From assembly GCA_947491935.1 (NCBI GenBank), contig CANLLF010000003.1, forward strand, positions 248,001 through 312,000: a stretch of DNA of 64,000 bases, given 5' to 3'. Shown here piece by piece: positions 6,857-36,443 of the stretch. The notes beneath the pieces are model-generated. The model was not told where the DNA came from. It did not search any database and was given only the letters and a program-made list of their open reading frames with translations. Source of the DNA: an uncultured Roseicyclus sp. Its GTDB lineage: Bacteria > Pseudomonadota > Alphaproteobacteria > Rhodobacterales > Rhodobacteraceae. A program made the position numbers and the translations under genes. Numbering within the stretch: position 1 is the stretch's first letter; every line of letters starts with the position of its first letter.

Positions 6857-8527
6857 ATGACCGTTAATATCGCGTTCGACACCTATTACACCTATGATGA
6901 GATGACCGCGCATCTGCAGGCGCTGGCGGAGGCCTACCCGAAGCTTTGCAAGCTGACCTCCATCGCCAAAAGCTTTCGGGACCGTGACGTCTGGTTCATG
7001 ACGATCACCAACCCCGACACCGGTCCGGCGCTGGAAAAGCCCGGCTTCTACATCGACGCGCAGATCCACGCGGAGGAGCACGCGACATCGGCCACCGCGC
7101 TTTACGCCTGTTGGTATCTGCTGACGAAGTACGGGACGGATGAGGAGGTGACGCGGCTGGTCGACGGGCAGGTGTTCTACATCATTCCGCGCATCAATCC
7201 CGATGGGGCCGAATACGCGATGACGGCACCCTACCATCCGTGGTGCGGCAATGGCCGTTTCCTGCCGGATGAGGATCGGATCGAGGGGCTGATCCCGCAG
7301 GACATCACTGGCGACGGTTACATCGTGCAGATGCGGGTGCCCGACAGTAAGGGCGAGTGGAAGAAGGATGCGGAAAACCCGGACATCATGGTGCAGCGCG
7401 AGCCGGGGGAAGAGGGTGGCGAGTATTTCCGTCTCTACCCCGAAGGCATGATCCGCAACTACGACGGCGTGCATGTCCATATCGAGATGCAGGAAGACGG
7501 GAACATGAACCGCAACTTCCCGACGAACTGGACACCGCAGGAGTATGGCGCGGGCGACTACCCGTTTTCCGAGCCGGAAACGGCGGGGATGCGGGATGTG
7601 ATCCTCGGCCATCCCAATATCACCGGCATGTGCGCCTATCACACCCATGGCGGCATTATCCTGCGCCCATCGATGCTGGAGCCGGACAGTACGATGAGTC
7701 CACCGGATCTGTCGCTCTATAAGGCATTGGGGGAAGTGGGGGAGCGTTTAACCGGATATCCCACAATTTCGGTTTATGAGGATTTCACGCCCGACAAGTC
7801 GAAGGCGCGCCACGGCTCGCTCACCGATTGGACCTATGAGGAGATGGGCATCATCTCCTTTGCGACCGAGCTGTGGGATCTGGAACGCACCGCCGGGGTG
7901 CCGAAGGAAGGTTACTACAACCTCGGGCCGCGCGATGCGGCGACGCAGCGGCTGGTGCACAATTGGGTGGTGGAAAATGTTGGCGAGCACGGCTTCCGCC
8001 CCTGGACCGCCTTCGATCACCCGCAGCTTGGGCCGGTGGAGGTGGGCGGGATGGTTTACATCTGGTCCTACCGCAATCCGCCCGGAAATCTGTTGGAGGA
8101 GATCTGCCACAACAACGTGTTGTTCAACCTGCGCCATGCTGCGGCGGCGCCCCGGATTGCCTTGGATAGCCTTGAGGTTGAGGCGCTTGGCGCGGATCTG
8201 CACCGGGTCACGGCGGTGGTGTCGAACCATGGCTATCTACCCACCAACCTATCGGATGTCGCGGTGAAGAACGGTGTCGCGAAGCCCGTGACCGTTGAGC
8301 TGGAGTGCGAGGGGGCCGAGTTGGTGATGAACCCGGGCGATGTGACGCTCGGCAACCTCGCCGGCCGCAACGAGCGGCGCTACGCCTATTCCAATTGGGG
8401 GCAGCAATGGTCCCCCGTCACCAAGAAGGTGGAATGGCTGGTGAAGGCAAGCGGCGCGGGCGCGTCGGTGCGCGTGACGGCGGCGTCCGAAAAGGGCGGG
8501 ACGGATCGGAAATCCGCGTCGTTGTAG
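6857..8527 (+). CDS. M14 family zinc carboxypeptidase
   Basis: 556 residues, longer than the ~300-residue catalytic unit because of a C-terminal beta-rich extension from about residue 400. The zinc motif HAEEHATS (HxxE) lies near residue 75. A later YHTHGG supplies the third ligand and FATELWD fits the catalytic Glu. M14 enzymes remove C-terminal amino acids or cleave gamma-D-Glu amides. No signal peptide is seen (the protein begins MTVNIAFDTYYT), so action is probably cytoplasmic on imported material. It is the last gene of the plus-strand run, 21 bases after the M20 gene, and converges with the minus-strand amidohydrolase after two bases. Confidence 0.84.
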   Translation: MTVNIAFDTYYTYDEMTAHLQALAEAYPKLCKLTSIAKSFRDRDVWFMTITNPDTGPALEKPGFYIDAQIHAEEHATSATALYACWYLLTKYGTDEEVTRLVDGQVFYIIPRINPDGAEYAMTAPYHPWCGNGRFLPDEDRIEGLIPQDITGDGYIVQMRVPDSKGEWKKDAENPDIMVQREPGEEGGEYFRLYPEGMIRNYDGVHVHIEMQEDGNMNRNFPTNWTPQEYGAGDYPFSEPETAGMRDVILGHPNITGMCAYHTHGGIILRPSMLEPDSTMSPPDLSLYKALGEVGERLTGYPTISVYEDFTPDKSKARHGSLTDWTYEEMGIISFATELWDLERTAGVPKEGYYNLGPRDAATQRLVHNWVVENVGEHGFRPWTAFDHPQLGPVEVGGMVYIWSYRNPPGNLLEEICHNNVLFNLRHAAAAPRIALDSLEVEALGADLHRVTAVVSNHGYLPTNLSDVAVKNGVAKPVTVELECEGAELVMNPGDVTLGNLAGRNERRYAYSNWGQQWSPVTKKVEWLVKASGAGASVRVTAASEKGGTDRKSASL

Positions 8528-8529
8528 GA

Positions 8530-9756
8530 TCAGAGGTGATCTTTGACCACGTCGCCAGCCTGTACAATCAGGGGGATCTTTTCCCCCTGGCCCAGAAGGC
8601 AGGTCATGTCCGATAGCGGATCGCCGTTCACAAGGATCAGATCCGCCGTCGCCCCTTCACCCACATGACCCAGATCGGGGCGGCGCAGGATCTCGGCGTT
8701 CACGGACGTGGCGGATTTCAGCACGTCCGCATTGGGCAGGACCTGTGCGCGAAGGGCAAATTCATCGGATTGGTGCTGGTTCATCCAGCCCAGAAGATCG
8801 GTGCCAAAGCCCATCTTCGTGCCCGCCTTCTGCAGGATCTGCAGAGAGTTCAACCCGGCCTCCCGCACCTTGCGGTTCTTGACGCGGTTGTCGCCGCCGA
8901 GGCCAATAGCGTCGGCGTGGCGATCGAGGCAATCGTAGATCACCAGCGTCGGCACGGCATAGGCGTCGCGATCCTTGAGGATGCCCGCCACGCGGTCGTC
9001 GATCAGGTTGCAATGCTCCAATGTCCGCACGCCGTTCACGCAGGCATGCTCAATGGCCTTGGCCGTGTAGGTATGGGCCGCGACGTAGGTACAGGCGGCC
9101 TCGGCCACCGTCACGATGGCCTGAATTTCCTCGGGCGTGAACTGAATCCAATCGATCGGATCGGTGGGCGTGGCCACACCGCCATTGGCCATGATCTTCA
9201 CGAAATCAGCGCCTAGGCGCAGCTCATCGCGGGCGGCTTGCAGGCAGGCTGGAACCCCGTCCACGATGCGCCCGAGCGAGGGTAAATGGCGGCGCTGCAT
9301 ATCCCCCACATCGGCCCGGCTGGCGCCGCGAAAATCCGTGTGCCCGCCAGTTTGGCCCAAGGCCTTTCCGGACGTTGAAATGCGGCTGCCACGGATCATC
9401 CCTTCGGCCTGCGCGCGTTTGTTGCCGGCATCCCCGCCGCCGACATCGCGGACGGTCGTAAAGCCGCGATCCAGCATTTCACCGAGGTTTCGCGCCGTCC
9501 AATGGGCCACGTAGGTGGGATGCATCGCCTCTAACGCCGCGAGGTTGGGGGTGGCAGCGGCGATATGCACATGGGCATCGATCAGGCCGGGCATTAAAGT
9601 GTGCCCGGTGCCGTCGATCACGCGGTCGGCCTCAGCGGAAATTGCGGTTTCTGACACTTCGGCAACCTGGCCCTCGGCCACCAGAACATGCATCCCCGGC
9701 TTGGCCTCATCCGAAACCCCATCAAACAATGTGCAATTCTCAAATTTGATCCGCAT
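8530..9756 (-). CDS. metal-dependent amidohydrolase (prolidase/imidazolonepropionase-like)
   Basis: 408 residues from the ATG at 9756; an in-frame GTG at 9786 would add ten residues. The shorter form was chosen because family homology begins at MRIKFENCTLFDG. The metal motif LIDAHVHIA is near residue 59, a carboxylated-Lys candidate lies in ADFVKIMANGG near residue 187, and His ligands follow in YVAAHTYT and LEHCN. A late Asp in GFGTDLLG completes the set. Members of this branch hydrolyse dipeptides (often Xaa-Pro or Xaa-Arg) or cyclic amides. It is divergent from the Liv ABC operon and convergent with the M14 gene, a position that ties it to the same amide catabolism. Confidence 0.82.
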   Translation of the reverse strand: MRIKFENCTLFDGVSDEAKPGMHVLVAEGQVAEVSETAISAEADRVIDGTGHTLMPGLIDAHVHIAAATPNLAALEAMHPTYVAHWTARNLGEMLDRGFTTVRDVGGGDAGNKRAQAEGMIRGSRISTSGKALGQTGGHTDFRGASRADVGDMQRRHLPSLGRIVDGVPACLQAARDELRLGADFVKIMANGGVATPTDPIDWIQFTPEEIQAIVTVAEAACTYVAAHTYTAKAIEHACVNGVRTLEHCNLIDDRVAGILKDRDAYAVPTLVIYDCLDRHADAIGLGGDNRVKNRKVREAGLNSLQILQKAGTKMGFGTDLLGWMNQHQSDEFALRAQVLPNADVLKSATSVNAEILRRPDLGHVGEGATADLILVNGDPLSDMTCLLGQGEKIPLIVQAGDVVKDHL

Positions 9757-22412: not shown

Positions 22413-24731
22413 ATGCCCAATGAGACCCAAGCCCGTATTCTCGCCGAGGCGCACGATCCCCTGATCGCACGTGTCTGGCGCGCCATGGCCGGGCTGAGAT
22501 CGGTTGTGACTTTCATGAATACCGGCGCCCATCCGGATGATGAAACCTCCGCGATGCTGGCTGCCCTCTGGCTGCGCGACGGGATCAACCTGTCCTATGC
22601 GTGCTCCACCCGCGGTGAGGGCGGTCAGAATGATATCGGCACCGAAAGCGGGGCAGACCTGGGCACGCTGCGCACGGCGGAAATGGAGGCCGCGGCAGAC
22701 GTGCTTGATATGCGGCTCTACTGGCATGGGCAGACAGCCGATGACACCATCACCGATTTCCGGTTCTCGAAATCGGGGATGGAGACGATGGGGATCTGGG
22801 GCAGAGAACGTCTGATGGCGCGGTTCGTCGAAATCATTCGCCGGGACCGGCCCGATATCATCTGCCCCACCTTCCTCGATGTTCCCGGCCAGCACGGCCA
22901 TCACCGGGCCATGACGGAGGCCGCCCACGACGTGATCGCGCTGGCGGCGGACCCGGATTACCCAAGTTGTGATTTGCCAGCGTGGCAAGTGTCGAAGCTA
23001 TATTTGCCCGCATTTTCGGGGGCCGGGGGCGCCTATGATGATGAAGTGCCGCCGCCTCCCGCAACGCTGGTGGTGGAGGCCAAGGGCGGTGATCCGATGC
23101 TGGGGATGTCATATGAGCGGATCGGCCAATGGTCGCGGCAGTTTCATCGCACGCAGGGCATGGGCCATTGGGTAGCGGCGGGGCAAGAGCGGGACTGGCC
23201 GCTGCATCTGGCTTGGTCTGCTGTGGGGGAGGATCGCGGTGCGGTGGATGACAACTTGCCGCGTACGCTGGGTGATTTGGGGTTGCGCGAAGCCGAGGCT
23301 GAGATCGAGGCAATCTTTGCCGTCTTCCCGGATATGGACGGGATGCGAGCGGCAGCCACGCGGGCGGTAATCGCCCTACGCGCGGCGGATACCGCACCCG
23401 AACACGCCCATCGGATCGACCGCAAGCTGGCTCAATTGGCCCGCTTGATCCGTCTTGTGGCGGGGGTCGATGCGCGCGCGCGGCCGGCCAAACATATTAT
23501 CTCCGCCAGTGAGACGGTGGAGGTGTTGACGGAGGTGAACGCGCCTCATGGCGTTCAGGTTGACGTGGCCCTGACCCCTGGACCCGGACTGCGCCAGACC
23601 GATGGTCGCTTGACGGCCGAGCGCGACGCCGCTCCGACCGACCCCTATCCCGATCACTACGACCCCTTGATGCCCCGCGTCCCTGCTTTGCGCGTGACTG
23701 TGGCCGCGGATGATGTCGCGACCCAATCCCACGTGCCGTTGGAGCGCCCGCTTTTGATCCTGCCGAGCCCCCGGGCGCAGCTTTCGGAAAGCGCGAAGTT
23801 CCTGAACCTTGCGTTGCCCGACCGGACGATCACACTGTCCCTTGGCGCGGGATCGCCGGGGCAGGCGCGCTTTGCGCTACCGGCCGGATGGACGCAAGAC
23901 TGGTCGGGCCGGACCGTCACGCTTCAAGTGCCCGAAGATGCGATAGGAGGGCTCCACACCTTACCGCTGACCATTGAGCGAGCGCCGGCCCATTCTGTGC
24001 GTATCATCGACCAGCCACACATGCCCCTGCGCATGAACCACAGCCCCGCCGTGGTGACGGTGCGCTTGGCCCATGTGGTGCTGCCCGAAGCGCGGATCGC
24101 CTATGTCGGCGCGGGCAATGACCGGGCAGCAGAATGGCTGCGAGCGGCCGGTCTCGACGTCACGGATCTGGAGGATGAGGCCCTTTCCGGTGCCGACCCG
24201 TTCGACGGCTTCGATGCCGTGCTGGTCGGCGTATTCGCCTATCGCTTCCGCCCGGCGCTCAAAACCGTCGTCGGCGCGCTGAACGCGTGGGTTGAGGCCG
24301 GTGGCACGCTTGTGACGCTCTATCACCGTCCGTGGGACGATTGGGACCCGGACACGACGCCGCCCGCGAGGATTGAGATCGGCCAGCCGTCCCTGCGTTG
24401 GCGGGTCACCGACGCGGAGGCCGAGGTGACGGTGTTGGAGGACAATCACCCAATGCTGCAGGGGCCCAACGCAATCACGCCGGAGGATTGGAACGGCTGG
24501 CATAAGGAGCGCGGCCTTTATTTCGCGAAGTCATGGGATGATCGCTATCAGGCGCTCCTGCGGATGGCCGACCCCGAGGAACAACCGCTTGATGGTGCGC
24601 TTCTGGTGGGTGAAATCGGGGCGGGCCGCCATGTCCATGTGGCGCTGAACCTGCATTACCAGATGGGGCAATTGGTGCCGGGGGCGTATCGGTTGATGGC
24701 GAACCTGCTGACGCCCCGCAGCCGGGGATGA
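22413..24731 (+). CDS. PIG-L family deacetylase with C-terminal GATase-like domain
   Basis: 772 residues in at least two units. The N-terminal ~270 residues are a LmbE/PIG-L deacetylase: zinc and catalytic motif AHPDDE at residues 39-44 and a later HGHHRAMTEAA (HxxH) near residue 160. A beta-rich middle segment follows. The C-terminal ~220 residues (from about IAYVGAGNDRAAEWL) resemble ThuA/class I glutamine-amidotransferase-like folds. PIG-L enzymes remove N-acetyl groups from GlcNAc-type sugars or mycothiol-like conjugates. No signal peptide is present. Co-transcription with a ROK regulator facing a sugar ABC operon suggests an N-acetylated sugar conjugate as substrate. Confidence 0.83.
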   Translation: MPNETQARILAEAHDPLIARVWRAMAGLRSVVTFMNTGAHPDDETSAMLAALWLRDGINLSYACSTRGEGGQNDIGTESGADLGTLRTAEMEAAADVLDMRLYWHGQTADDTITDFRFSKSGMETMGIWGRERLMARFVEIIRRDRPDIICPTFLDVPGQHGHHRAMTEAAHDVIALAADPDYPSCDLPAWQVSKLYLPAFSGAGGAYDDEVPPPPATLVVEAKGGDPMLGMSYERIGQWSRQFHRTQGMGHWVAAGQERDWPLHLAWSAVGEDRGAVDDNLPRTLGDLGLREAEAEIEAIFAVFPDMDGMRAAATRAVIALRAADTAPEHAHRIDRKLAQLARLIRLVAGVDARARPAKHIISASETVEVLTEVNAPHGVQVDVALTPGPGLRQTDGRLTAERDAAPTDPYPDHYDPLMPRVPALRVTVAADDVATQSHVPLERPLLILPSPRAQLSESAKFLNLALPDRTITLSLGAGSPGQARFALPAGWTQDWSGRTVTLQVPEDAIGGLHTLPLTIERAPAHSVRIIDQPHMPLRMNHSPAVVTVRLAHVVLPEARIAYVGAGNDRAAEWLRAAGLDVTDLEDEALSGADPFDGFDAVLVGVFAYRFRPALKTVVGALNAWVEAGGTLVTLYHRPWDDWDPDTTPPARIEIGQPSLRWRVTDAEAEVTVLEDNHPMLQGPNAITPEDWNGWHKERGLYFAKSWDDRYQALLRMADPEEQPLDGALLVGEIGAGRHVHVALNLHYQMGQLVPGAYRLMANLLTPRSRG

Positions 24732-25585
24732 GCGCACCTCTTGCGACCCGGTCCGAGAACTTGCGTGGGGCGGGTTGGCTGATCGCCGACATGTCGCTCA
24801 ATATCTGGGCGCTCAGCATCGTGAAGGCAATGGGCGCCGAGTATCCGGCGGCACAGATTGTGTTTCTTCGGGTCTGCGTTGGGCTTGTCGTGATCCTGCC
24901 GTGGGTCTGGCGCGAGCGGGCGCGGTTGTCCGGCGTGGCGCATATGGGCCTGCATATGCTGCGGGTTTGTCTATCGGCGATCACTCTGATCGCGTCGTTC
25001 TTTGCCATCGCGCGCGTGCCGTTTGCGATGTTTTCAGCCATTAACTTCACGCGCCCGGTCCTTCTGATGGTCCTGGCAGCGCTCTTGCTGAGTGAACGGG
25101 TCAGCCCGCATCGCTGGCGCGGGGCGGTTGTTGCTCTGCTCGGCGCGGTGATCGCGGCGGCCCCGGCTCAGCTCGAAATCGGGTGGGGCCTTGCCGGACT
25201 TTGCCTTTCGGTGACGACGGGCACGTTGGCGATCATCCTGACGCGGCGGCTCAAAGGCACGCCTGAGGTTGTGATGATGCTGTTCTACACGCTCGGTATC
25301 GCGGTGCTGATGGCACCTCTGGCCTGGGCGGCTTGGGTACCGGTCGCGGCCGAGCACTGGCCCATCCTGCTTCTGGTCGGGCTCTGCGCTCAGATGGCAC
25401 AATTCTGCTTTCTGCGCGCCCATTGGCTGGGGGATGCGGGCGTGCTTGGGGCGGTGTCGTACCTGTCGATCATCCTGTCGACGGCATCGGGCTTCTTCTT
25501 CTTTGCAGAAGTGCCCGGCTGGCCTTTGGTTCTTGGTGCCGCGCTGATTGTTCTGGCGAACATCTATATCTCGCGGGACGTCTGA
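24728..25585 (+). CDS. EamA/DMT family transporter
   Basis: 285 residues with about ten hydrophobic segments arranged as two EamA repeats, the second beginning near residue 150. The start lies in an ATGA overlap with the PIG-L gene. DMT proteins export amino acids, metabolites or drugs, and a few import. The motif FSAINFTRPVLLMVLAALLL ahead of SERVSPHRWRG is the usual end of the first repeat. It may export a product of the PIG-L reaction. Confidence 0.85.
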   Translation: MSAPLATRSENLRGAGWLIADMSLNIWALSIVKAMGAEYPAAQIVFLRVCVGLVVILPWVWRERARLSGVAHMGLHMLRVCLSAITLIASFFAIARVPFAMFSAINFTRPVLLMVLAALLLSERVSPHRWRGAVVALLGAVIAAAPAQLEIGWGLAGLCLSVTTGTLAIILTRRLKGTPEVVMMLFYTLGIAVLMAPLAWAAWVPVAAEHWPILLLVGLCAQMAQFCFLRAHWLGDAGVLGAVSYLSIILSTASGFFFFAEVPGWPLVLGAALIVLANIYISRDV

Positions 25586-25700: not shown

Positions 25701-28700
25701 ATGGGGCTGCGCGTTTTTTCCGAGAAAAGCCGTCCCGTTCATCTGGGCTCCTACCGTCTTGAAACCCTGAAACGGCACGCGGATGCGAACCTGGATGCGG
25801 TGTCGCCGTTTCAGCAATTATCCTTCGCCCATGACAATCGCCCCCAGTCGATCGTGAATGCGATGCGAGATCATCAAGCGATGCTGGATGCCATCCGCGA
25901 TGGGTTGGTGAACAAGGTGCAAGCCGAGGCGCCAACAGGATTAACAGAGCGTTCCAATCACCTGAAATCATTTGGATACTTTGCCGATGCGTCGATGGTT
26001 GGCACCTGCCTTTTGCCCGATGCAGCGCTGCTGGATCAGCCCTACCTGAACCCGGATATCGCGCGGCTGGCCGAGGATCTGCGCACGCGCCAGACCAAGA
26101 CGCTGGCCTCGGGCATCGACCTGATCATGGCGGACCTCAAGGAATCGATGGAGGCACCGCCAAGCACGATCGAAGGGCACACCCATGCGATTGTCTTCCT
26201 CTATGAGCATCCCCGTGCGCCCAAGGCGGATGAGCCGGGGACCGATTGGATCATGGATGCGCTGCCCCACCGCTCCTGCCTATTGGCGGCCGAGACGGCG
26301 GTGGTGATCGCCAACTATCTGCGAATTCTGGGCCACGACGCCCGCGCCCATACTGCCAGTTCGTCGGATGTGGATCTGAACCGGCTGGCCGTAGCCTCCG
26401 GTCTTGCAATCGCGGCGGATGGGGGGACGCCGTCGGCGCCGTTCATCGGGCCCAATTTCGGCATTGCGGCCATCACGACCACCTTTGCCGTCGCGCCGGA
26501 TCAGCCGCTGGCCCCGGGATCCGTCCCGCAAAGCGCCGTGCCGCCCTTTGCCACTCGACGTTTCATGGATGGCGCCCATCCGTTCGAGAAGCTCAAACGC
26601 GTCGATGATCCCACCACCTATATCGACGAGGCGCGCGTGCCCCGTGTGCCGAAACGGACCGACATGTTCGCGCGGGCGCAATTCGGCGATATGGGCAAAC
26701 CGCTCCAGGATGGGGCCAAAGGCGGTTACTACGTCCGCAAGGCCGCGCCGTCTTCAGCGCAGCGGCGGGCTTTGGGGGCGTTCGTTCTTTTGCAAGATGG
26801 CGAGCCCGCGGCGGAAAAGGTCCCGCTGTCACCGCAAGAGGCGGCGGAGTTGGTGAAGGCGACCAGCTACTTCCTGGGCGTCGATGCGGTGGGGCTCAGC
26901 CGGTGCCCGGACTGGACGTGGTACTCCCATGATGCCGCCGGCGAGCCTATCGATCCGCCCCATGACCATGCGATCAGCATGATCATCGATCAGGGCTTTG
27001 ACACGATGGAGGGTGCGTCGGGCGACGACTGGATCAGCGTCGCCCAATCCATGCGCGCCTACCTGCGGTTTTCGCTGCTGGGTGGGGTCGTGGCCCGGCA
27101 ATTGCGCAACCTGGGCTACAAGGCCAAGGCCCATTCCGTGATGGATGGCGAGGTGTTGCAACCGCCGCTTCTGCTCCTGTCCGGTCTGGGCGAGGTCAGC
27201 CGCATCGGTGAGGTGATCCTGAACCCCTATCTCGGACCACGCCTGAAATCCGGAGCGGTCACCACCGACCTGCCGATGGAGCATGACAAGCCGATCGATT
27301 TCGGCCTCCAAAGCTTCTGCGAGGCGTGCAAGAAATGTGCCCGCGAATGCCCATCGGGTGCCATCACCGCCGGGCCGAAACTGATGTTCAACGGCTACGA
27401 GATCTGGAAATCCGACAGCCAGAAATGCGCCACCTACCGGATCACGACGCAGGGCGGAGCGATGTGCGGGCGCTGTATGAAGACCTGCCCTTGGAACCTG
27501 GAAGGGGTGCTGGGGGATGCGGTGTTCCGCTGGACTGCGATGAACGTGCCATCCTCTGCCCCGGCTCTGGCCAAGCTCGACGACATGCTGAACCGGGGCG
27601 ATCTGAACCCGGTCAAGAAATGGTGGTGGGATCTGGAGCTGGATGCGGATGGCGGCTATCGCCCTACGGACAAGCCGGTGAACGCGCGCGGGCTGCAAAA
27701 GGATCTGGACCTGAAATACGAGGATCAGACGCTGGCCGTCTATCCCGCGCCGCTGGTCCCGCATCCCTATCCCTACCCCTACATCATGGATCGCGAGGCC
27801 GGGATTGAGGCTTATCAGGCTATGATCACCGCCGAGGAATACAAGGCCCGCGCGGCGCGAGGGGAAAATCCGGTCCACAAGACGCGCGATTACGATGAGA
27901 GCCCGGTTCTGCGGGTACAGATCACCAAGGCAGAACAGACGGCGGAGGACATCACCATCTATGAATTCCGGAGCCTTGATGGGTCTGACCTGCCGGCATG
28001 GGAGGCGGGCGCCCATCTTGACATCGTCGTGGCGCCGGAATTCCTGCGCCAATATTCGATGTCAGGCGACCCGGCGGACCGCTCGACCTACCAGATCGGC
28101 GTATTGCGGGAAGCTCAGGGGCGCGGCGGATCGGCGCTCTTGCATCGGATCTTCAACGAGGGCCGCAAGGTCTTTATCTCCAAGCCGATCAATCACTTTC
28201 CGCTCCATGAAGATGCGCCAATGACTTACCTGATGGGGGGCGGGATCGGGATCACTCCGATGATCGCCATGGCGCATCGGCTGCATGCCTTGGGCAAGCC
28301 GTTTGCGATGCACTATTCCGGGCGGATGCGGGCGACGATGGGGTATCTGAATGATCTCAGAGCGATGCCCTGGGCCGACAAGGTGGTTGTGCATGTCTCC
28401 TCCGAGGGGACTCGTGCGCAATTGGCAGACATCCTGGCATATCAAGACGGCGCGCACGTCTATACCTGCGGGGCGGAGCCCTACATGGCCGCAGTGATGG
28501 AGGCCGCGGAGGTGGCGGGGTTCCCGGAGGATAACCGGCATCTGGAATACTTCTCGGTCCCCGATGTACCGGATTACGAGAACCACCCATTCACGATCAA
28601 ATTGGCGAGGTCGGGCCGCGCATTCAGCGTGCCCGAAGACAAATCCGCCGCCGATGTGTTGATCGAGAACGGCATCCCGGTGGATCTGAAATGCTCCGAC

Positions 28701-28850
28701 GGAATCTGCGGCGTCTGCAAATGCGGACTGGTCTCCGGCGACGTCGAACACCGCGATTTCGTGCTATCCAAGTCACAACGGGCCACCCAGATCATCACCT
28801 GCCAATCCCGGGCGCGGGAGCCGGGCGGCGTGATCGAGCTCGATCTGTAG
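25701..28850 (+). CDS. rdhA: self-sufficient (catabolic-type) reductive dehalogenase fused to a flavin/2Fe-2S reductase
   Basis: 1049 residues. Residues ~1-690 are a cobalamin-dependent reductive dehalogenase unit without a Tat signal; the C-terminal ~340 residues are a phthalate-dioxygenase-reductase-like module. Two 4Fe-4S sites are complete: C540, C543, C546, C550 (CxxCxxCxxxCP) and C576, C589, C592, C596 (Cx12CxxCxxxCP). The reductase part shows the flavin motif RQYS at 783-786, a nucleotide-binding GGGIGITP near 846 and a plant-type 2Fe-2S set C998, C1003, C1006, C1034. This order matches the soluble NAD(P)H-driven dehalogenases known from Nitratireductor and Comamonas, which remove halogens from halogenated hydroxybenzoates aerobically. 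The RBS is AGGGAG seven bases before the ATG. No membrane anchor gene (rdhB) is present and none is needed for this type. Confidence 0.9.
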   Translation: MGLRVFSEKSRPVHLGSYRLETLKRHADANLDAVSPFQQLSFAHDNRPQSIVNAMRDHQAMLDAIRDGLVNKVQAEAPTGLTERSNHLKSFGYFADASMVGTCLLPDAALLDQPYLNPDIARLAEDLRTRQTKTLASGIDLIMADLKESMEAPPSTIEGHTHAIVFLYEHPRAPKADEPGTDWIMDALPHRSCLLAAETAVVIANYLRILGHDARAHTASSSDVDLNRLAVASGLAIAADGGTPSAPFIGPNFGIAAITTTFAVAPDQPLAPGSVPQSAVPPFATRRFMDGAHPFEKLKRVDDPTTYIDEARVPRVPKRTDMFARAQFGDMGKPLQDGAKGGYYVRKAAPSSAQRRALGAFVLLQDGEPAAEKVPLSPQEAAELVKATSYFLGVDAVGLSRCPDWTWYSHDAAGEPIDPPHDHAISMIIDQGFDTMEGASGDDWISVAQSMRAYLRFSLLGGVVARQLRNLGYKAKAHSVMDGEVLQPPLLLLSGLGEVSRIGEVILNPYLGPRLKSGAVTTDLPMEHDKPIDFGLQSFCEACKKCARECPSGAITAGPKLMFNGYEIWKSDSQKCATYRITTQGGAMCGRCMKTCPWNLEGVLGDAVFRWTAMNVPSSAPALAKLDDMLNRGDLNPVKKWWWDLELDADGGYRPTDKPVNARGLQKDLDLKYEDQTLAVYPAPLVPHPYPYPYIMDREAGIEAYQAMITAEEYKARAARGENPVHKTRDYDESPVLRVQITKAEQTAEDITIYEFRSLDGSDLPAWEAGAHLDIVVAPEFLRQYSMSGDPADRSTYQIGVLREAQGRGGSALLHRIFNEGRKVFISKPINHFPLHEDAPMTYLMGGGIGITPMIAMAHRLHALGKPFAMHYSGRMRATMGYLNDLRAMPWADKVVVHVSSEGTRAQLADILAYQDGAHVYTCGAEPYMAAVMEAAEVAGFPEDNRHLEYFSVPDVPDYENHPFTIKLARSGRAFSVPEDKSAADVLIENGIPVDLKCSDGICGVCKCGLVSGDVEHRDFVLSKSQRATQIITCQSRAREPGGVIELDL

Positions 28851-28906: not shown

Positions 28907-29320
28907 CTAGTCCGCATCCCGCAACACATGCACCGCGCAGGGCGCATGCCGCACAACACGCGCAGCGGTTGAGCCAAGCAGATAGTCGATCAACCCCGGT
29001 TTGTGGGACCCGATGATGATGCAATCCGCCTTCTGTTCATCGGCGAAATCGATGATCGTCCGGCCGCTATGGCCCTTGATCACGATAGGGGTCACGTCCG
29101 GGTGGTCGGCAACGCGCACCTTCAACCGCGCCTGAGAGGCCTCGAACGCTCCCCGCACGGTGTCCTCGTCAAGATAGGCACTGACCGATCCTTGCGGGGC
29201 TTCGTGCACGTGCAACGCAGTGATCTTGCCGCCGTCATTCAACAGCTTGTGCGCCAGCGCGATGGCGGTTCGTCCAAACCCGTGATCAAGCGCCATTGGG
29301 ATGATGATGTGGTCATACAT
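28907..29320 (-). CDS. universal stress protein (UspA family)
   Basis: 137 residues, one Usp domain. The nucleotide-binding signature GSHKPGLIDYLLGSTAARVV (G-x2-G-x9-G-S/T) near residue 103 is intact, so ATP binding is likely. The N-terminal MYDHIIIPMALDHG is the usual first strand. It is convergent with the dehalogenase gene and lies downstream of the TRAP operon on the same strand, 166 bases after dctM. UspA genes next to TRAP transporters are common in proteobacteria, and a regulatory ATP-sensing role for the transporter has been suggested in other organisms. Confidence 0.88.
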   Translation of the reverse strand: MYDHIIIPMALDHGFGRTAIALAHKLLNDGGKITALHVHEAPQGSVSAYLDEDTVRGAFEASQARLKVRVADHPDVTPIVIKGHSGRTIIDFADEQKADCIIIGSHKPGLIDYLLGSTAARVVRHAPCAVHVLRDAD

Positions 29321-29486: not shown

Positions 29487-30818
29487 CTATTGGTAGATCT
29501 CCGGCAGGAGCGCCGTGGAAATCGCCGGGATATAAGCAATCAGTAACGTCACCATCAGCATGAACAGAACGAACGGGACGGCGCGGGCGGCAATCTTCAA
29601 TATCGATTCCCCCGTTATCCCTGACACGACGAACAGGTTCAGCCCGAGCGGCGGCGTGATGAACCCGACGCCGAGAGCAGTGATCATCATCACGCAGAAC
29701 TGGATCTCGTTCATGCCGATATTCTGCGCCAACGGGAACAGGATCGGCGCCAGGATCACGATGTTCGGCGTCGTCTCCATCACACATCCAGCGGCAATCA
29801 GGATCAGGATCATCATCAGGATCAGGATCCGTGGATCGTCGCTCACGCCGGTGGCGGCGGCGACAAAGCCCTGCGGCACCCCGAGGATGGCCAGGGCCTG
29901 CGCCAGAGGCAGCGAGAACGCGATGATCGGCAGGATCACCCCATTCACCTTGGCCGAGCTGACCAGCATCGCCGGAAAATCACTGAACTTCAGCGTGCCG
30001 ATAATGAAGCCGATGACGATACAGGTGACCACCGCCACGGCACCGGCCTCGGTCGGTGTCAGGCGCCCTGAGAAGATGCCGTAGAAGATGATGCCGGGCA
30101 CAAGAAACGCGTACCAGCCCGATCGGACCGTGCGCCACAGGTTGCTGGCCCATTCGCCGACACTCATCAACCCGCCCCCCTCGTAAGCGTGCCGACGGTT
30201 GACGATGGTGTTGGTGATCAGGATTGCCAGCAGCACCAGTAGGCCGGGAATCACGGCAGCGAGAAACAGGATCGAGACGTTCACGCCAAGCACGAGGCCG
30301 ATGATGATATAGGCGATGGACGGCGGGATAAGGATGCCGGTACAGGCACCGGCAGCCACAAGGGCGCAGGCATAGGGGCGCGGGTAGCCGGATTCGACCA
30401 GGCGGTCGATGGTCATCCGGCCAACCGCGGCAGCACCCGCCGCGTCGGAACCGGAGATGGCGGCGAACATCCCACAGACCAATACGGTGGCCGAGCCGAA
30501 GCCGCCCTTGGCCCAACACGTGATGGCCTCCGCCACGTCGAGGAATTTTTTCGACAGCCCGGTCCGGACCAACACGTCGCCGGTCAGGATGAAGAGCGGC
30601 ACGGCCGTCAGCGCGAAGTGGTCGATGCCGTGAAAAAGGCTTTCGCCCACCAAAGACAGGGGCAGGGCGCCCGACATCATCAGCATCAGGATCGCGGCGG
30701 ACCCGATAGAGGCCCAGACCGGAACCGCAAGGGCCACCAGGATAACGAAGACGATGATCGGGACGTAGAAATCTGCGCCCAGTTCAACGGTCTGCTGTTG
30801 AAGCGTTTGCCAAAGCAT
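29487..30818 (-). CDS. dctM: TRAP transporter large permease (DctM)
   Basis: 443 residues, the normal DctM length, with about twelve hydrophobic segments. Family landmarks include FSGRLTPTEAGAVAVV near residue 250, AGACTGILIPPSIAYII near residue 165 and the C-terminal FITPPLGLNLFVVSGI block. It uses an ion gradient to drive solute uptake together with DctQ and the periplasmic DctP. It is the last gene of a four-gene minus-strand operon and lies 13 bases after dctQ. Confidence 0.93.
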   Translation of the reverse strand: MLWQTLQQQTVELGADFYVPIIVFVILVALAVPVWASIGSAAILMLMMSGALPLSLVGESLFHGIDHFALTAVPLFILTGDVLVRTGLSKKFLDVAEAITCWAKGGFGSATVLVCGMFAAISGSDAAGAAAVGRMTIDRLVESGYPRPYACALVAAGACTGILIPPSIAYIIIGLVLGVNVSILFLAAVIPGLLVLLAILITNTIVNRRHAYEGGGLMSVGEWASNLWRTVRSGWYAFLVPGIIFYGIFSGRLTPTEAGAVAVVTCIVIGFIIGTLKFSDFPAMLVSSAKVNGVILPIIAFSLPLAQALAILGVPQGFVAAATGVSDDPRILILMMILILIAAGCVMETTPNIVILAPILFPLAQNIGMNEIQFCVMMITALGVGFITPPLGLNLFVVSGITGESILKIAARAVPFVLFMLMVTLLIAYIPAISTALLPEIYQ

Positions 30819-30831
30819 TGTTCAGCCCCCC

Positions 30832-31347
30832 TCAGTCAAACAGCTTGTCGCCCTCGTAAACGGGACGTCCGTTTCGAAGGTCTGACAGATCACGAAGGAA
30901 GGATTGAACAAGCCTCAGGATGACGAGGGCAAATCCGAACGGCACGGCAAAGAGGAAGAACACCTGGCTGATCCGCAGGCCGTGGGTGACCGAGCCGAAC
31001 GTCCAGGAGACGTGAACGGCCTCCCACGACCAGTAAAGCGCCACGCAGGCCACCACAAACATCACGATGTCGCCCAGGATGTACAGCAGCGTCTTGAGGG
31101 TGTGCGGCACGTAATTCATGATCACGTCGATGCGGATGTGACCGCGTTCCTTCACCGCCGAGGCCGCGCCGATCCAGGCCAGATAGATGAAGGAGTAACG
31201 CACGATCTCTTCGCCCCAGATCGAGGAATAGGAAAACACCTCGCGCCGAATGACTTCGATGAACATCGTGCCCACCAGCATCACGTAGAACACCAGCAAC
31301 AGCCAGCGTTCCGCATTTCGATTCAGCGATTGAAGAAAAGTCGTCAT
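30832..31347 (-). CDS. dctQ: TRAP transporter small permease (DctQ)
   Basis: 171 residues with four hydrophobic segments and the DctQ core pattern EVIRREVFSYSSIWGEEIVR near residue 29, ending in helices that pack on DctM. It is essential for the TRAP complex in the inner membrane. It is separated from dctP by 104 bases containing a hairpin and from dctM by 13 bases. Confidence 0.92.
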   Translation of the reverse strand: MTTFLQSLNRNAERWLLLVFYVMLVGTMFIEVIRREVFSYSSIWGEEIVRYSFIYLAWIGAASAVKERGHIRIDVIMNYVPHTLKTLLYILGDIVMFVVACVALYWSWEAVHVSWTFGSVTHGLRISQVFFLFAVPFGFALVILRLVQSFLRDLSDLRNGRPVYEGDKLFD

Positions 31348-31409
31348 GCTGCCCCTCCCACCGGAGGGAGCCCCGGCATGAACATGCTGTATTTTCGTTG
31401 AGATATTGG

Positions 31410-31440
31410 GGCCGGCATCCGCGAGGCGCAGGTGCCGGCC
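31410..31440 (-). other. intergenic hairpin after dctP
   Basis: An 8-bp perfect stem (31410-31417 GGCCGGCA with 31433-31440 TGCCGGCC) with a 15-base loop lies 12 bases downstream of the dctP stop and before dctQ on the minus strand. As with the hairpins after the two ABC binding-protein genes, it probably raises the ratio of binding protein to permease by stabilising the upstream RNA or partly stopping transcription. Confidence 0.55.
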
Positions 31441-31451
31441 TTGGTGTGGGT

Positions 31452-32597
31452 TCAGGCGTCGTGCACGTAGTAGCGGCCCATCGTACCAGCGGCCTCTTCG
31501 AGGCGCGCGAACGTCTCCATGGAGCCTGCAAGGTCAACCTTGAACTGGTCCCAATCGGGCAGCTGGTAGCCGCCAACCGACTGCCATTCGGCCAGCTGGT
31601 CATCCGTGAGTGAATGAAACTCCACACCGTTTGCCGTCAGTTCCGACATCGCATAACCGCGCGCGGCTGGCACTTTGGCAAGGTTCTGGGCCTGTGTGAT
31701 CTCACCCGCGAACTCGATACCCTCCTGCACGTCGGCAGGCAGGCTTTCGAACCATTCGAGGTTCACGGAGTAAACCTGGCTGTCCGGCACCGCCTGCGTG
31801 AAGGTCACGTGGCTAAGGATTTCGCCAAAACCGAAGACATGCAGCGCGCCGACCGACGGGTCAAGCGCATCAGCCACACCCTGACGGATCGCCGAGGGGG
31901 TCTCGCCCCAAGCCACCGGTGTCGGGTTGGCACCAACCATGCGGTAATACTGCTGCAACATGGCGGAGCCCGGCACGCGGAATTTCACACCGTCCATGTC
32001 CGCGGGCGTGATGATGGCGTCGCCGCCCTGCCGCACGGCGACGACGCGCGGGTCGATCACGATGTAGAACAGCGCCTTGAACCCGGACGCCGCGATGCGC
32101 GGGTCCACTTCGTCCTTCCACGTCTGCGACGACGTCAGGTTGGTGAACCGCTGATTGGAGCCGCAGAAATAGGGCAGGTTGATCAGATCAACGACCGAGG
32201 CAAACGGCGCAAAATTGGCCAAAGAGTGCTGCGCACATTGGATCGTGCCGGATTGCACAGCCTGCGCCAGCGCCCCGCCGGCTCCAAGTTGTCCACCGGG
32301 GGCAAGGCGCACATAGACCTTGCCGTTGGTCATGTTCTGGATGTTTTCCTTCAGGTCCAGCTGCATGATCGGATAGCTGCGCGAAGCCCCGAGAACATAG
32401 GCGGTGGCCAACGTCATGATGTGATCGGCGGCGGCCTCCCGCGCGGCCTCTTCTTGTTGGGTCTGGGCCGCCGCTTCGCCCGACCACAATGTCCCTGCAG
32501 CCCCTGCAACCATCGCGGCGGTGAAGCTACCGGCGCTTGCAAGCTTGAGGAAATTGCGGCGCTCGGCCGACTTTAGCTCTTGGATGTCTTTGTCCAA
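31452..32597 (-). CDS. dctP: TRAP transporter substrate-binding protein (DctP, Tat signal)
   Basis: 381 residues from a TTG start at 32597. That start was chosen because GGAGG lies eight bases upstream and the protein begins directly with a cytoplasmic tail and a twin-arginine signal (AERRNFLKLA, Arg13-Arg14), then a hydrophobic stretch and cleavage near EAAAQ. An ATG nearby (32601) is out of frame. The mature protein has the DctP/TAXI-like pattern, with GGQLGAGGALAQAVQSGTIQ near residue 103 and VKFRVPGS near residue 195, whose Arg contacts the carboxylate of the ligand in this family. Ligands are therefore likely organic acids. Export of a folded binding protein by Tat is less common than Sec. 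Confidence 0.9.
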   Translation of the reverse strand: MDKDIQELKSAERRNFLKLASAGSFTAAMVAGAAGTLWSGEAAAQTQQEEAAREAAADHIMTLATAYVLGASRSYPIMQLDLKENIQNMTNGKVYVRLAPGGQLGAGGALAQAVQSGTIQCAQHSLANFAPFASVVDLINLPYFCGSNQRFTNLTSSQTWKDEVDPRIAASGFKALFYIVIDPRVVAVRQGGDAIITPADMDGVKFRVPGSAMLQQYYRMVGANPTPVAWGETPSAIRQGVADALDPSVGALHVFGFGEILSHVTFTQAVPDSQVYSVNLEWFESLPADVQEGIEFAGEITQAQNLAKVPAARGYAMSELTANGVEFHSLTDDQLAEWQSVGGYQLPDWDQFKVDLAGSMETFARLEEAAGTMGRYYVHDA

Positions 32598-32614
32598 TTC
32601 ATGTCCTCCCTGGA

Positions 32615-32803
32615 CTATTTGCCTGCACCGTTTTCCTTGGCTTCGGCTTCTTTTTTCAGGATCGCGATGACGAACAGGATGCTGGCTGCAAGCAGCGTCA
32701 GCATCTCGCCCACATCGGTCAGAAACGCGTTGTTTGATGCGGAGCCCATGCCGACATTTACGGCAAAGACCACCAATAAGATGACTGATCCGATGAGTGC
32801 CAT
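32615..32803 (-). CDS. small two-helix membrane protein of the TRAP operon
   Basis: 62 residues from the ATG at 32803, preceded by a GGAGGGG ribosome-binding site. Two hydrophobic segments are visible (about residues 2-18 and 28-46), with a charged C-terminal tail (KKEAEAKENGAGK). No known family is recognised. It is the first gene after the LacI operators, 17 bases upstream of dctP, so it is produced under the same control as the transporter. It may assist DctQM assembly or sense membrane state, but no function can be assigned. Confidence 0.7.
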   Translation of the reverse strand: MALIGSVILLVVFAVNVGMGSASNNAFLTDVGEMLTLLAASILFVIAILKKEAEAKENGAGK

Positions 32804-32841
32804 GTTGCGTCTGCCCCTCCCGACACACGATTCCATGTCGC

Positions 32842-32859
32842 AATGTAAGCCTTTACATT
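32842..32859. promoter_or_regulatory. LacI-type operator 1
   Basis: AATGTAAGCCTTTACATT is an 18-bp near-palindrome with the central pyrimidine-purine arrangement typical of LacI-family sites (TGTAA..N..TTACA). It lies 38 bases upstream of the TRAP operon's first start codon and next to a second copy. The adjacent LacI gene is the obvious binder. Overlap with the TRAP promoter would give repression until the inducer binds. Confidence 0.75.
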
Positions 32860-34170: not shown

Positions 34171-35169
34171 ATGACCACCTACGCCCTGAACGGCCTTGGC
34201 CGGATCGGAAAACTGGCCCTGAAACCGCTGCTGGAGCGCGGTGCCAAGATCGCCTGGATCAACGATGCCGTGGGTGACCCAGAGATGCACGCCCATCTTT
34301 TGGAGTTCGACACCGTCCATGGCCGGTGGGACGCCGCGTTTTCCCACGATGATCGGGCGATTACCGTCGACCACGTGCGGCTTCCCTTTATCGGCGCAAG
34401 GGGCCTGGCGGATCTGCCGCTCGATGGCGTGGACGTGGTGATCGATTGCACCGGCGCCTTCAAAACGCAGGCCGGGCTGGCGCCGTATTTTGAGGCTGGC
34501 GTAAAGAAGGTTGTTGTGTCGGCTCCCGTCAAGGACGGGCCGACCGCAAACATCGTCTACGGCGTGAACGAGGGTGTCTATGATCCCGCCGTACATTCTA
34601 TCATCACTGCCGCCAGTTGTACGACCAACTGCCTTGCCCCGGTTGTGAAGGTCATTCACGAGGCGATCGGCATCAAGCACGGCTCCATCACGACAATTCA
34701 TGATGTCACCAACACGCAGACCATCGTGGATCGGCCCGCCAAGGATCTACGCCGGGCCCGCTCGGCGCTGAACTCGCTGATCCCCACGACCACCGGCAGC
34801 GCCACGGCCATCACGCTGATCTATCCGGAGCTGAAGGGCCGTTTGAACGGCCATGCGGTGCGGGTGCCCTTGCTGAACGCATCGATCACCGATTGTGTGT
34901 TCGAGGTTGGGCGTGAGACCTCCGTGGAGGAGGTCAACGCGTTGTTCAAAGCGGCGTCGGAGGGTGAGTTGAAGGACATTCTCGGATATGAAGAGCGCCC
35001 CTTGGTTTCCGCCGACTACACCAACGATACCCGGTCCTGCATCATCGATGCGCCGTCCACGATGGTGATCAACGGGACGCAGGTGAAGATCTATGCATGG
35101 TATGACAATGAGGTGGGGTATGCGCATCGCCTTGTCGATGTGGCCCTGATGGTCGGAGGGGCACTTTGA
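34171..35169 (+). CDS. ArsJ-associated glyceraldehyde-3-phosphate dehydrogenase
   Basis: 332 residues. The Rossmann start [18 protein letters not shown], the catalytic SCTTNC with Cys150, and the C-terminal [14 protein letters not shown] are those of GAPDH. The start is an ATG preceded by a moderate purine-rich site. It overlaps arsJ by four bases. In this known partnership GAPDH uses arsenate instead of phosphate to make 1-arseno-3-phosphoglycerate, which ArsJ exports, giving arsenate resistance. The N-terminal variant GLGRIG and other differences from glycolytic GAPDH agree with a dedicated paralogue. No arsR, arsC or acr3 is present in this window. Confidence 0.9.
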
Positions 35170-36443
35170 CCGAACCCGGCCGCCCGCGCCCCGAGGGCCT
35201 GAACGCCTACATGGCCGTCACGGCGGCGTATTGGGCCTTCATGCTGAGCGATGGGGCGCTGCGTATGCTGGTGCTGCTGCACTTTCACATCCTCGGCTTT
35301 TCGCCTGTGCAACTGGCCTATTTGTTCGTGCTCTACGAGGTGGCGGGCATGGTCACAAACCTGTCGGCGGGCTGGATCGCGGCACGCTTCGGGTTGACCT
35401 CCACGCTCTATGCCGGGCTGGCGCTCCAGATCCTGGCACTTCTGGCGCTGGCGCAGCTTGATCCCGGGTGGGCCATTGGCGCGTCGGTGGTTTTTGTCAT
35501 GATCGTGCAGGGCGTCAGCGGCGTGGCCAAGGATCTGTCGAAGATGTCGTCTAAATCTGCGGTGAAGTTGCTGGCCCCGACCGAAGGCGACGGCCTCTTT
35601 CGCTGGGTCGCGCTTCTGACCGGGTCCAAGAATGCGGTGAAGGGGCTCGGGTTCCTGCTTGGCGCAGGTCTTCTGGCCAGCCTTGGCTTTACCTGGGCCG
35701 TCCTTGCCATGGCTATCGTTCTGGCAGCGGTCCTCGGCGCTGTCCTGCTGGCGATGCCGCCGGGCCTGCCGAAGGGGCGCAAGGGGGCCAAGTTCACAGA
35801 GGTCTTCTCGAAATCGGCCAACATCAACTGGCTTTCCGCCGCGCGCGTGTTTCTCTTTGGAGCGCGGGATGTCTGGTTCGTGGTGGGCATCCCGATCTAC
35901 TTCTACGCCGTGCTGTCGGATGGAAGCGAGGCCGGCAATCGCGCGGCGTTCTTCACCATCGGCACCTTCATGGCGGTCTGGATCATCCTTTACGGCGCGG
36001 TGCAGGCGACCACGCCGCGGCTGTTGCGGGCCAGCGCACAATCCGAGGCCGATCTGATCGGTTCCGCCCGGCTCTGGGCCTGGGCCCTGACACTGGTGCC
36101 CGCCGGCCTGACCATCGCTGCCCTTATCGTGCCAGAGCCGCAGCCGTGGCTGACGGCCACGCTTGTCAGCGGGCTGCTGATCTTCGGCGCGGTCTTCGCT
36201 GTGAATTCCGCGCTCCATTCCTATCTGATCCTCGCCTTCACCCAGGCCGAGCGGGTGACGATGGATGTCGGGTTCTACTATATGGCCAATGCCGGTGGGC
36301 GCCTGATTGGCACGCTCCTGTCCGGGCTGATGTATCAGATCGGCGGCTTGGCCTGGATGCTTGGCACGGCGGCGGGGATGGTGGCGGTCTCGGCCATCGC
36401 CGCGGGGCAGTTGAGGCCCCAAGAGCAACCGGATCCTGCCTGA
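35166..36443 (+). CDS. arsJ: organoarsenical efflux MFS transporter ArsJ
   Basis: 425 residues starting at TTG in a TTGA overlap with the GAPDH stop, with CGGAGGGG just upstream; the next in-frame ATG at 35211 would remove the conserved N-terminus. About twelve membrane segments are present. The ArsJ-specific loop [18 protein letters not shown] near residue 119 and the [15 protein letters not shown] block near residue 152 are diagnostic. The protein exports 1-arseno-3-phosphoglycerate, which breaks down outside to arsenate and 3-phosphoglycerate. It pairs functionally with the upstream GAPDH. Confidence 0.93.

Follow-up and report, generated by a model that had tools for sequence, protein, structure and literature searches.

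The described enzymes that seem closest to the gene considered here, a fused reductive dehalogenase (RdhA) gene lying in a 64,000-nucleotide stretch of an uncultured Roseicyclus sp. genome (contig CANLLF010000003.1, positions 248,001 to 312,000; hereafter the window), are other RdhAs, of which JtRdhA of Jhaorihella thermophila (WP_104007082) is a characterised marine fused one. In the available part of its description (PMC10463259), purified JtRdhA contains cobalamin (0.4), FMN (0.53) and iron to fill two [4Fe-4S] clusters and one [2Fe-2S] cluster, couples NADPH to product at 1.0 with and without air, and debrominates and deiodinates ortho-halophenolics, the chlorinated compounds tested there having stayed undehalogenated; 3,5-dibromo-4-hydroxybenzoate is its best substrate, 3-bromo-4-hydroxyphenylacetate (on which E. 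coli W carrying JtRdhA grows) is turned over at 99.3% of that rate and 2,6-dibromophenol at 6.8% of it, and 2-iodophenol and 2,4,6-triiodophenol are also taken. The same text gives BhbA (Comamonas sp. 7D-2, plasmid pBHB; WP_015585978) and JtRdhA as fused and NpRdhA (Nitratireductor pacificus) as naturally devoid of a reductase domain and accompanied by separate ferredoxin genes, and describes the N-terminal core of catabolic RdhAs as a vestigial duplication (PMC10463259). As putative bhbA homologues have been reported, in the accessible part of another study, to be widespread in the Roseobacter clade (PMC13101508), both the enzyme type and its spread there are already known, and the window protein is a further, common member.

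It is likely that this protein is a cytoplasmic, oxygen-tolerant, self-sufficient catabolic RdhA, which removes ortho-bromine or ortho-iodine from 4-hydroxyphenyl acids. Its gene is a single open reading frame starting with ATG (Table 1), and it is a real gene, because an identity of 69-85% runs along the whole length of its 1049 residues in 56 relatives (alignment A1) and reaches 97% in locus L001, whose protein equals that of G011, the species partner of the window's own genome (G000). The NCBIfam model TIGR02486 ("reductive dehalogenase") is matched at 192.5 bits against a cut-off of 160.35, with the best stretch at residues 423-631, and the Pfam families PF00111 (2Fe-2S) and PF13484 (4Fe-4S) are above their cut-offs, whereas PF13486 ("Dehalogenase") is absent from the Pfam matches at E<=0.001, even though it is present for another RdhA that the genome encodes, a short one. 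The NpRdhA structures 4RAS and 6ZXU are the nearest solved ones for the RdhA half by sequence, the former being matched by residues 3-107 and 159-718 (phmmer, E 3.6e-146 for the whole chain; in the second stretch 247 of 556 aligned positions, or 44%, are identical). The N-terminal portion of the window protein aligns with the corresponding portion of NpRdhA, so the duplicated core is present. Phthalate dioxygenase reductase (2PIA) is matched by residues 733-1045 (E 4.2e-56), where self-sufficient P450s match as well, so that both domains stand in one chain, as had been claimed in the original prediction, made from the sequence before any database search; the frame, the RQYS motif (which we take to be the flavin motif) and the cysteines completing the ligand sets for two [4Fe-4S] and one [2Fe-2S] cluster were likewise all found where it had placed them. 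No twin-arginine (Tat) motif is seen by eye in the N-terminus, in agreement with the Tat-less chain foreseen and unlike respiratory RdhAs, and no RdhB-like gene was found among the nine flanking genes scanned, a scan that did not cover small unannotated reading frames. An AlphaFold model built from a 57-sequence alignment (mean predicted local distance difference test score, pLDDT, 71.5) has NpRdhA chains as its top PDB matches (6zxx_A, E 6.4e-52), followed, for the reductase end, by self-sufficient P450s and 2PIA.

The original prediction had also named the catalytic Tyr, Lys and Arg as the residues to be checked, and these are kept: Y426, K488, R552, S422 and M423 of NpRdhA, whose roles, including the closeness of R552 to the substrate hydroxyl, are given in the available text of PMC7565698, correspond to Y454, K516, R580, S450 and M451 here, and are invariant in all 113 rows of the residue alignment (111 fused proteins, one truncated homologue and NpRdhA). 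Architecture, cofactor ligands, catalytic residues, relatives and neighbours are matters of observation, from which we infer, as follows, which cofactors the window protein contains, how electrons travel through it, that it tolerates oxygen, what it acts on and what it does for the cell. NAD(P)H, as homology to the catabolic type suggests in line with the earlier claim, would reduce the flavin bound in the reductase domain at the C-terminus; from there electrons would pass on through [2Fe-2S] and the two [4Fe-4S] clusters to cobalamin; and the reduced cobalamin would remove bromide or iodide ortho to the phenolic hydroxyl, Tyr454 donating a proton while being tuned by Lys516, and Arg580 and Ser450 holding the hydroxyl. 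The likeliest substrates would be ortho-bromo or ortho-iodo 4-hydroxyphenyl acids, those of the 4-hydroxyphenylacetate type first and those of the 4-hydroxybenzoate type second, and the products might join the routes through homogentisate, homoprotocatechuate or protocatechuate, for which the genome has genes at other places. The broader proposal of halogen removal from aromatics is thus retained as likely for bromo- and iodophenolics and appears doubtful for chlorinated ones, given the inactivity of JtRdhA on those tested in the text available (PMC10463259).

What this substrate assignment draws on, and what could not have been obtained from the window alone, is the gene neighbourhood of relatives, in some lineages of which, the window's close relatives included, a tie of rdhA to 4-hydroxyphenyl-acid pathways is real, though it is unseen in most. 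Four genomes of the same genus and rdhA clade (G002, G005, G010 and G012; 83-85% identical) share the order hmgA-maiA-fahA-MBL-FAD monooxygenase-rdhA (the maiA of G005 has no reading-frame call of its own and was found by tblastn), and in G001, G008 and G009 rdhA is co-directional with the hmg operon and lies ~14 to 26 kb behind its FAD monooxygenase gene; operon and rdhA are far apart in G003, G004 and G007, and on separate contigs in G000, G011 and the draft G006. At three further loci (L008, L025 and L032) hpaE-D-G-H is immediately followed by a co-directional rdhA. For HmgA, MaiA, FahA, HpaE, HpaD and HpaH, the single representative scored in each case exceeds the curated cut-off. Across a set of 92 loci, which includes the window, plasmid loci and the genus genomes (62 with both flanks >6.9 kb), hmgA lies within 9 kb of rdhA in 11 (the four genomes above and seven others, making up about four to six lineages as read from the tree), where a rough estimate from genome size, without a shuffled control, would expect ~0.4 by chance; hpaD-G-H is beside rdhA in 3/92 and, by tblastn, a pobA-like gene is near it in 7/92, those of BhbA and of the Nitratireductor OM-1 plasmid included.

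The window's own genome encodes the matching pathways: its contig C1 carries hmgA, maiA, fahA, the MBL gene and the FAD monooxygenase, with no rdhA behind them, as well as hpaF-E-D-G-H, in which a pyridoxal-dependent decarboxylase gene separates hpaD from hpaG; pobA is on contig C2. The products of hmgA, maiA, fahA, hpaE, hpaD, hpaH and pobA are above their cut-offs, HpaG is below, and HpaF is a tblastn call (hpaE is too loose a marker family-wide at the E-value used, with 247/248 genomes matched and 88 above cut-off; neither its family-wide list of places nor that of hmgA entered the counts given here). The earlier statement that catabolic genes are not adjacent holds for the window, but its corollary of an open substrate is narrowed by the homogentisate operon of the relatives and by the hmg, hpa and pobA genes elsewhere in the genome.

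Several observations weigh against the proposed substrate. No aromatic catabolic gene adjoins rdhA in the window, and in a one-per-genus sample (80 of 99 other matching genomes, 65 with full flanks, partly overlapping the 92 loci) hmgA was found within ~8 kb of rdhA at none of the 80 loci and a pobA-like gene beside it at 3, because of which the pathway link is regarded as lineage-specific and hmgA linkage as a general rule was rejected; MarR and dctM-like genes occur there in 6/80 and 8/80 loci. The AlphaFold model falls below a pLDDT of 50 near the active site (residues 306-351, 480-513 and 550-595). The pocket mouth, moreover, resembles neither NpRdhA nor BhbA, so homology alone would not give the substrate: F290, K307, A419 and N452 of NpRdhA are replaced by M322, A339, V447 and V480 (a common set, with M in 99, A in 96, V in 99 and V in 108 of the 113 rows), and the equivalents of F310/P311 depend on the alignment (Y343/Y344 in the one to NpRdhA, Y344/V345 in that of 113 rows). 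The exact specificity of NpRdhA is therefore not transferable, but since its K307 touches the benzoate carboxylate in only one of three bound conformations, according to the accessible text of PMC7565698, the loss of this lysine does not exclude benzoates.

A possible alternative, partly compatible with the catabolic role, is that an enzyme of the same type detoxifies marine bromophenols and iodophenols without any growth pathway being attached. Such a role would explain a lone, often relocated gene, and it agrees with the absence of a conserved operon partner across the loci examined (the commonest neighbour family, an ABC-transporter ATPase by eye, occurs in 21/90), with the retention of one full-length copy, albeit of different gene lineages, in 13/13 genomes of the genus, and with the simple halophenols accepted by JtRdhA in the text available (PMC10463259); the low rate of that enzyme on 2,6-dibromophenol and the hmg, hpa and pobA-like genes adjoining rdhA in several lineages, on the other hand, speak against it. 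More doubtful seems a BhbA-like 3,5-dihalo-4-hydroxybenzoate dehalogenase feeding PobA and protocatechuate cleavage, a role that overlaps the second substrate class proposed above. BhbA is a full-length fusion with the same catalytic residues, 50.5% identical over 100% of the query, it and the OM-1 protein lie with pobA/ligAB-type genes, and the window's genome has a pobA of its own; yet BhbA and the OM-1 protein branch separately (support 100, FastTree) and have F, S, S, S and A where the window protein has M322, A339, Y344, V447 and V480, the BhbA gene, unlike that of the window, has protocatechuate 4,5-dioxygenase genes as neighbours and is carried by a plasmid classed as conjugative, and the nearest relatives with informative neighbours indicate hmg, not pobA. 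That a B12- and NADPH-dependent reductase acts here on a bond other than carbon-halogen is very improbable: epoxyqueuosine reductase is also a class III B12 enzyme (available text of PMC10463259) and the halogen specificity of the window protein would rest on comparison, but the dehalogenase model scores 192.5 bits against 24.8 for QueG (TIGR00276 cut-off 200, which rules out that identity; closer clustering with QueG was an outcome that the original prediction had named as refuting it), the NpRdhA catalytic residues are kept, and the fused relative JtRdhA is a proven dehalogenase (PMC10463259).

Returning to removal of bromine or iodine from 4-hydroxyphenyl acids, the likeness to JtRdhA, as far as the available description of the latter goes (PMC10463259), comprises the fusion of RdhA to a phthalate-dioxygenase-reductase-type domain, the lack of a Tat signal, the duplicated core, the three key residues and the marine setting, and residues 108-158, absent from NpRdhA, are probably the fusion-specific insert reported there; the loop of the window's clade, however, is ~20 residues shorter than in most aligned relatives, an alignment in which the JtRdhA sequence does not figure. 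The earlier attribution of the fused architecture to Nitratireductor and Comamonas is borne out by BhbA and fails for NpRdhA, which is unfused (PMC10463259, in the part available), a fused RdhA being present on the plasmid of a different Nitratireductor (OM-1). In the literature found (titles and abstract beginnings, subscription journals being mostly outside), none of the papers that mention reductive dehalogenases together with homogentisate or hydroxyphenylacetate concerns this enzyme, and no settled natural substrate of the enzyme type was found; the homogentisate and homoprotocatechuate operon neighbours make it directly testable with 3-bromo-4-hydroxyphenylacetate. If true, aerobic marine debromination and deiodination by B12 enzymes would add a sizeable sink to the ocean halogen cycle.

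A more speculative and rather unlikely extension would be a halotyrosine route in this genus, with the fused RdhA as the entry enzyme and the cobalamin coming from other organisms. A pyridoxal-dependent decarboxylase and a subsequent oxidation would turn bromo- or iodotyrosine into ortho-halo-4-hydroxyphenylacetate, from which RdhA would take the halogen off, leaving the ring to be mineralised through hmg or hpa. The idea is based on the decarboxylase within the genome's own hpa cluster and on a decarboxylase of that family which, in the four hmg-linked relatives, is encoded downstream of rdhA at a distance of two to four genes (the one at L120 is 75% identical to that of the window's genome). 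As to the cofactor, cobJ, above cut-off in 10/13 genomes of the genus, has no such match in G000, G011 or the 83%-complete G006, and the CobN-like match of G000 proved to be BchH (magnesium chelatase), so de novo cobalamin synthesis was rejected for this genome (other cob genes were unsearched); for these reasons the organism probably imports a cobamide or B12, and would probably be a photoheterotroph scavenging it for a B12 enzyme.

Beyond the genus, rdhA matches at E<=1e-100 occur in 100/248 genera of the family (one genome each, the window's included), a few of them partial (e.g., the truncated NpRdhA-like chain of G045), and 8 of 1068 matching plasmid records cover >=80% of the query. In the gene tree (FastTree only) the 13 genus genomes are spread over the window clade (7), a second clade (5) and a third place (G007), mixed with Rhodobacterales, Hyphomicrobiales and Granulosicoccaceae, whereas in the RpoB tree G007 groups with first-clade genomes and G006, whose rdhA is of the first clade, with second-clade ones (support 94). 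Because of this conflict, and because RpoB identity within the genus is 93-99% when that of RdhA goes down to 71%, replacement of rdhA by horizontal transfer would be the simplest reading. The window clade (11 rows) has chains of <=1053 residues and the shorter loop in its 10 printed rows (L011 was judged by length), although L118 and the cut L080 are short too and fall outside it. At L117 (G205:C12) and G111:C4:333239-336432 the rdhA copies are apparently broken or split: one genome has an incomplete match interrupted by two in-frame stops, the other a pair of incomplete matches that overlap. Upstream of the rdhA of Epibacterium ulvae there is a reading frame (L006 7087-9231), part of which (8119-9228) aligns with the window protein over 390 residues at 27%.

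The short RdhA of the same genome lies outside the window (L082:1348-2559; G000:C3, ~158.5 kb); it has 403 residues, is above the TIGR02486 cut-off, has an identity of 28.7% with residues 285-599 of the window protein and adjoins a 320-residue gene that is agmatinase/arginase-like by eye. In its cysteine motifs this short RdhA is similar to what the available text gives for Ros_A3X954 of Roseobacter sp. MED193, a short, Tat-less marine debrominase without a reductase (PMC13101508).

Table 1. Coordinates of the rdhA gene, its parts and its neighbours in the window
Feature	Position	Strand	Basis
Catabolic reductive dehalogenase of the fused, self-sufficient kind, 1049 aa (stop codon within the coordinates)	25701..28850	+	TIGR02486, structure-sequence matches, relatives
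N-terminal half, residues 1-372, vestigial non-cobalamin-binding copy by homology (border approximate)	25701..26816	+	NpRdhA alignment; PMC10463259 (available part)
Residues 108-158, against only 8 in NpRdhA (104-111)	26022..26174	+	Gap between two phmmer stretches
Residues 272-285, loop ~20 residues shorter than in most relatives	26514..26555	+	Alignment rows
Cobalamin and [4Fe-4S] catalytic part, residues ~373-720	26817..27860	+	TIGR02486, NpRdhA alignment
Tyr454 = NpRdhA Tyr426 (proton donor); a few residues earlier, Ser450 and Met451 = S422, M423	27060..27062	+	Alignments
Lys516 = NpRdhA Lys488	27246..27248	+	Alignments
Two [4Fe-4S] sites, Cys540/543/546/550 and Cys576/589/592/596	27318..27488	+	Pfam, alignment
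Arg580 = NpRdhA Arg552	27438..27440	+	Alignments
Phthalate-dioxygenase-reductase domain, residues 736-1049	27906..28847	+	NCBIfam, 2PIA match, fold match
RQYS motif, residues 783-786, presumably flavin motif	28047..28058	+	Alignment
[2Fe-2S] ferredoxin domain, Cys998/1003/1006/1034	28602..28814	+	PF00111, alignment
EamA-type transporter, upstream of rdhA, same strand; functional tie putative	24728..25585	+	Flanking gene scan
Universal stress protein family, convergent with rdhA; functional tie putative	28907..29320	-	Flanking gene scan
TRAP transporter dctM, dctQ, dctP, convergent; dctP start uncertain	29487..32843	-	Flanking gene scan

Among the window's neighbours, the TRAP transporter is a possible but unproven partner of rdhA: dctM lies 15-104 bases upstream of rdhA on the same strand in 7/92 loci, but the window's dctM (its copy in L128) is ~26% identical to that of L027, the type preceding rdhA elsewhere, and belongs to another subfamily. 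No Rfam match to a cobalamin riboswitch reached the gathering score in the window, and a promoter and terminator scan gave nothing above shuffles. Further upstream (22413-24731, +) a 772-residue protein is encoded, whose N-terminus shows weak, sub-cut-off matches to the deacetylases BshB2 and Mca and continues into a long C-terminal part, and downstream (34171-36443, +) there are an ArsJ-associated glyceraldehyde-3-phosphate dehydrogenase and the MFS exporter ArsJ, both above curated cut-offs and presumably forming an arsenate-detoxification module.

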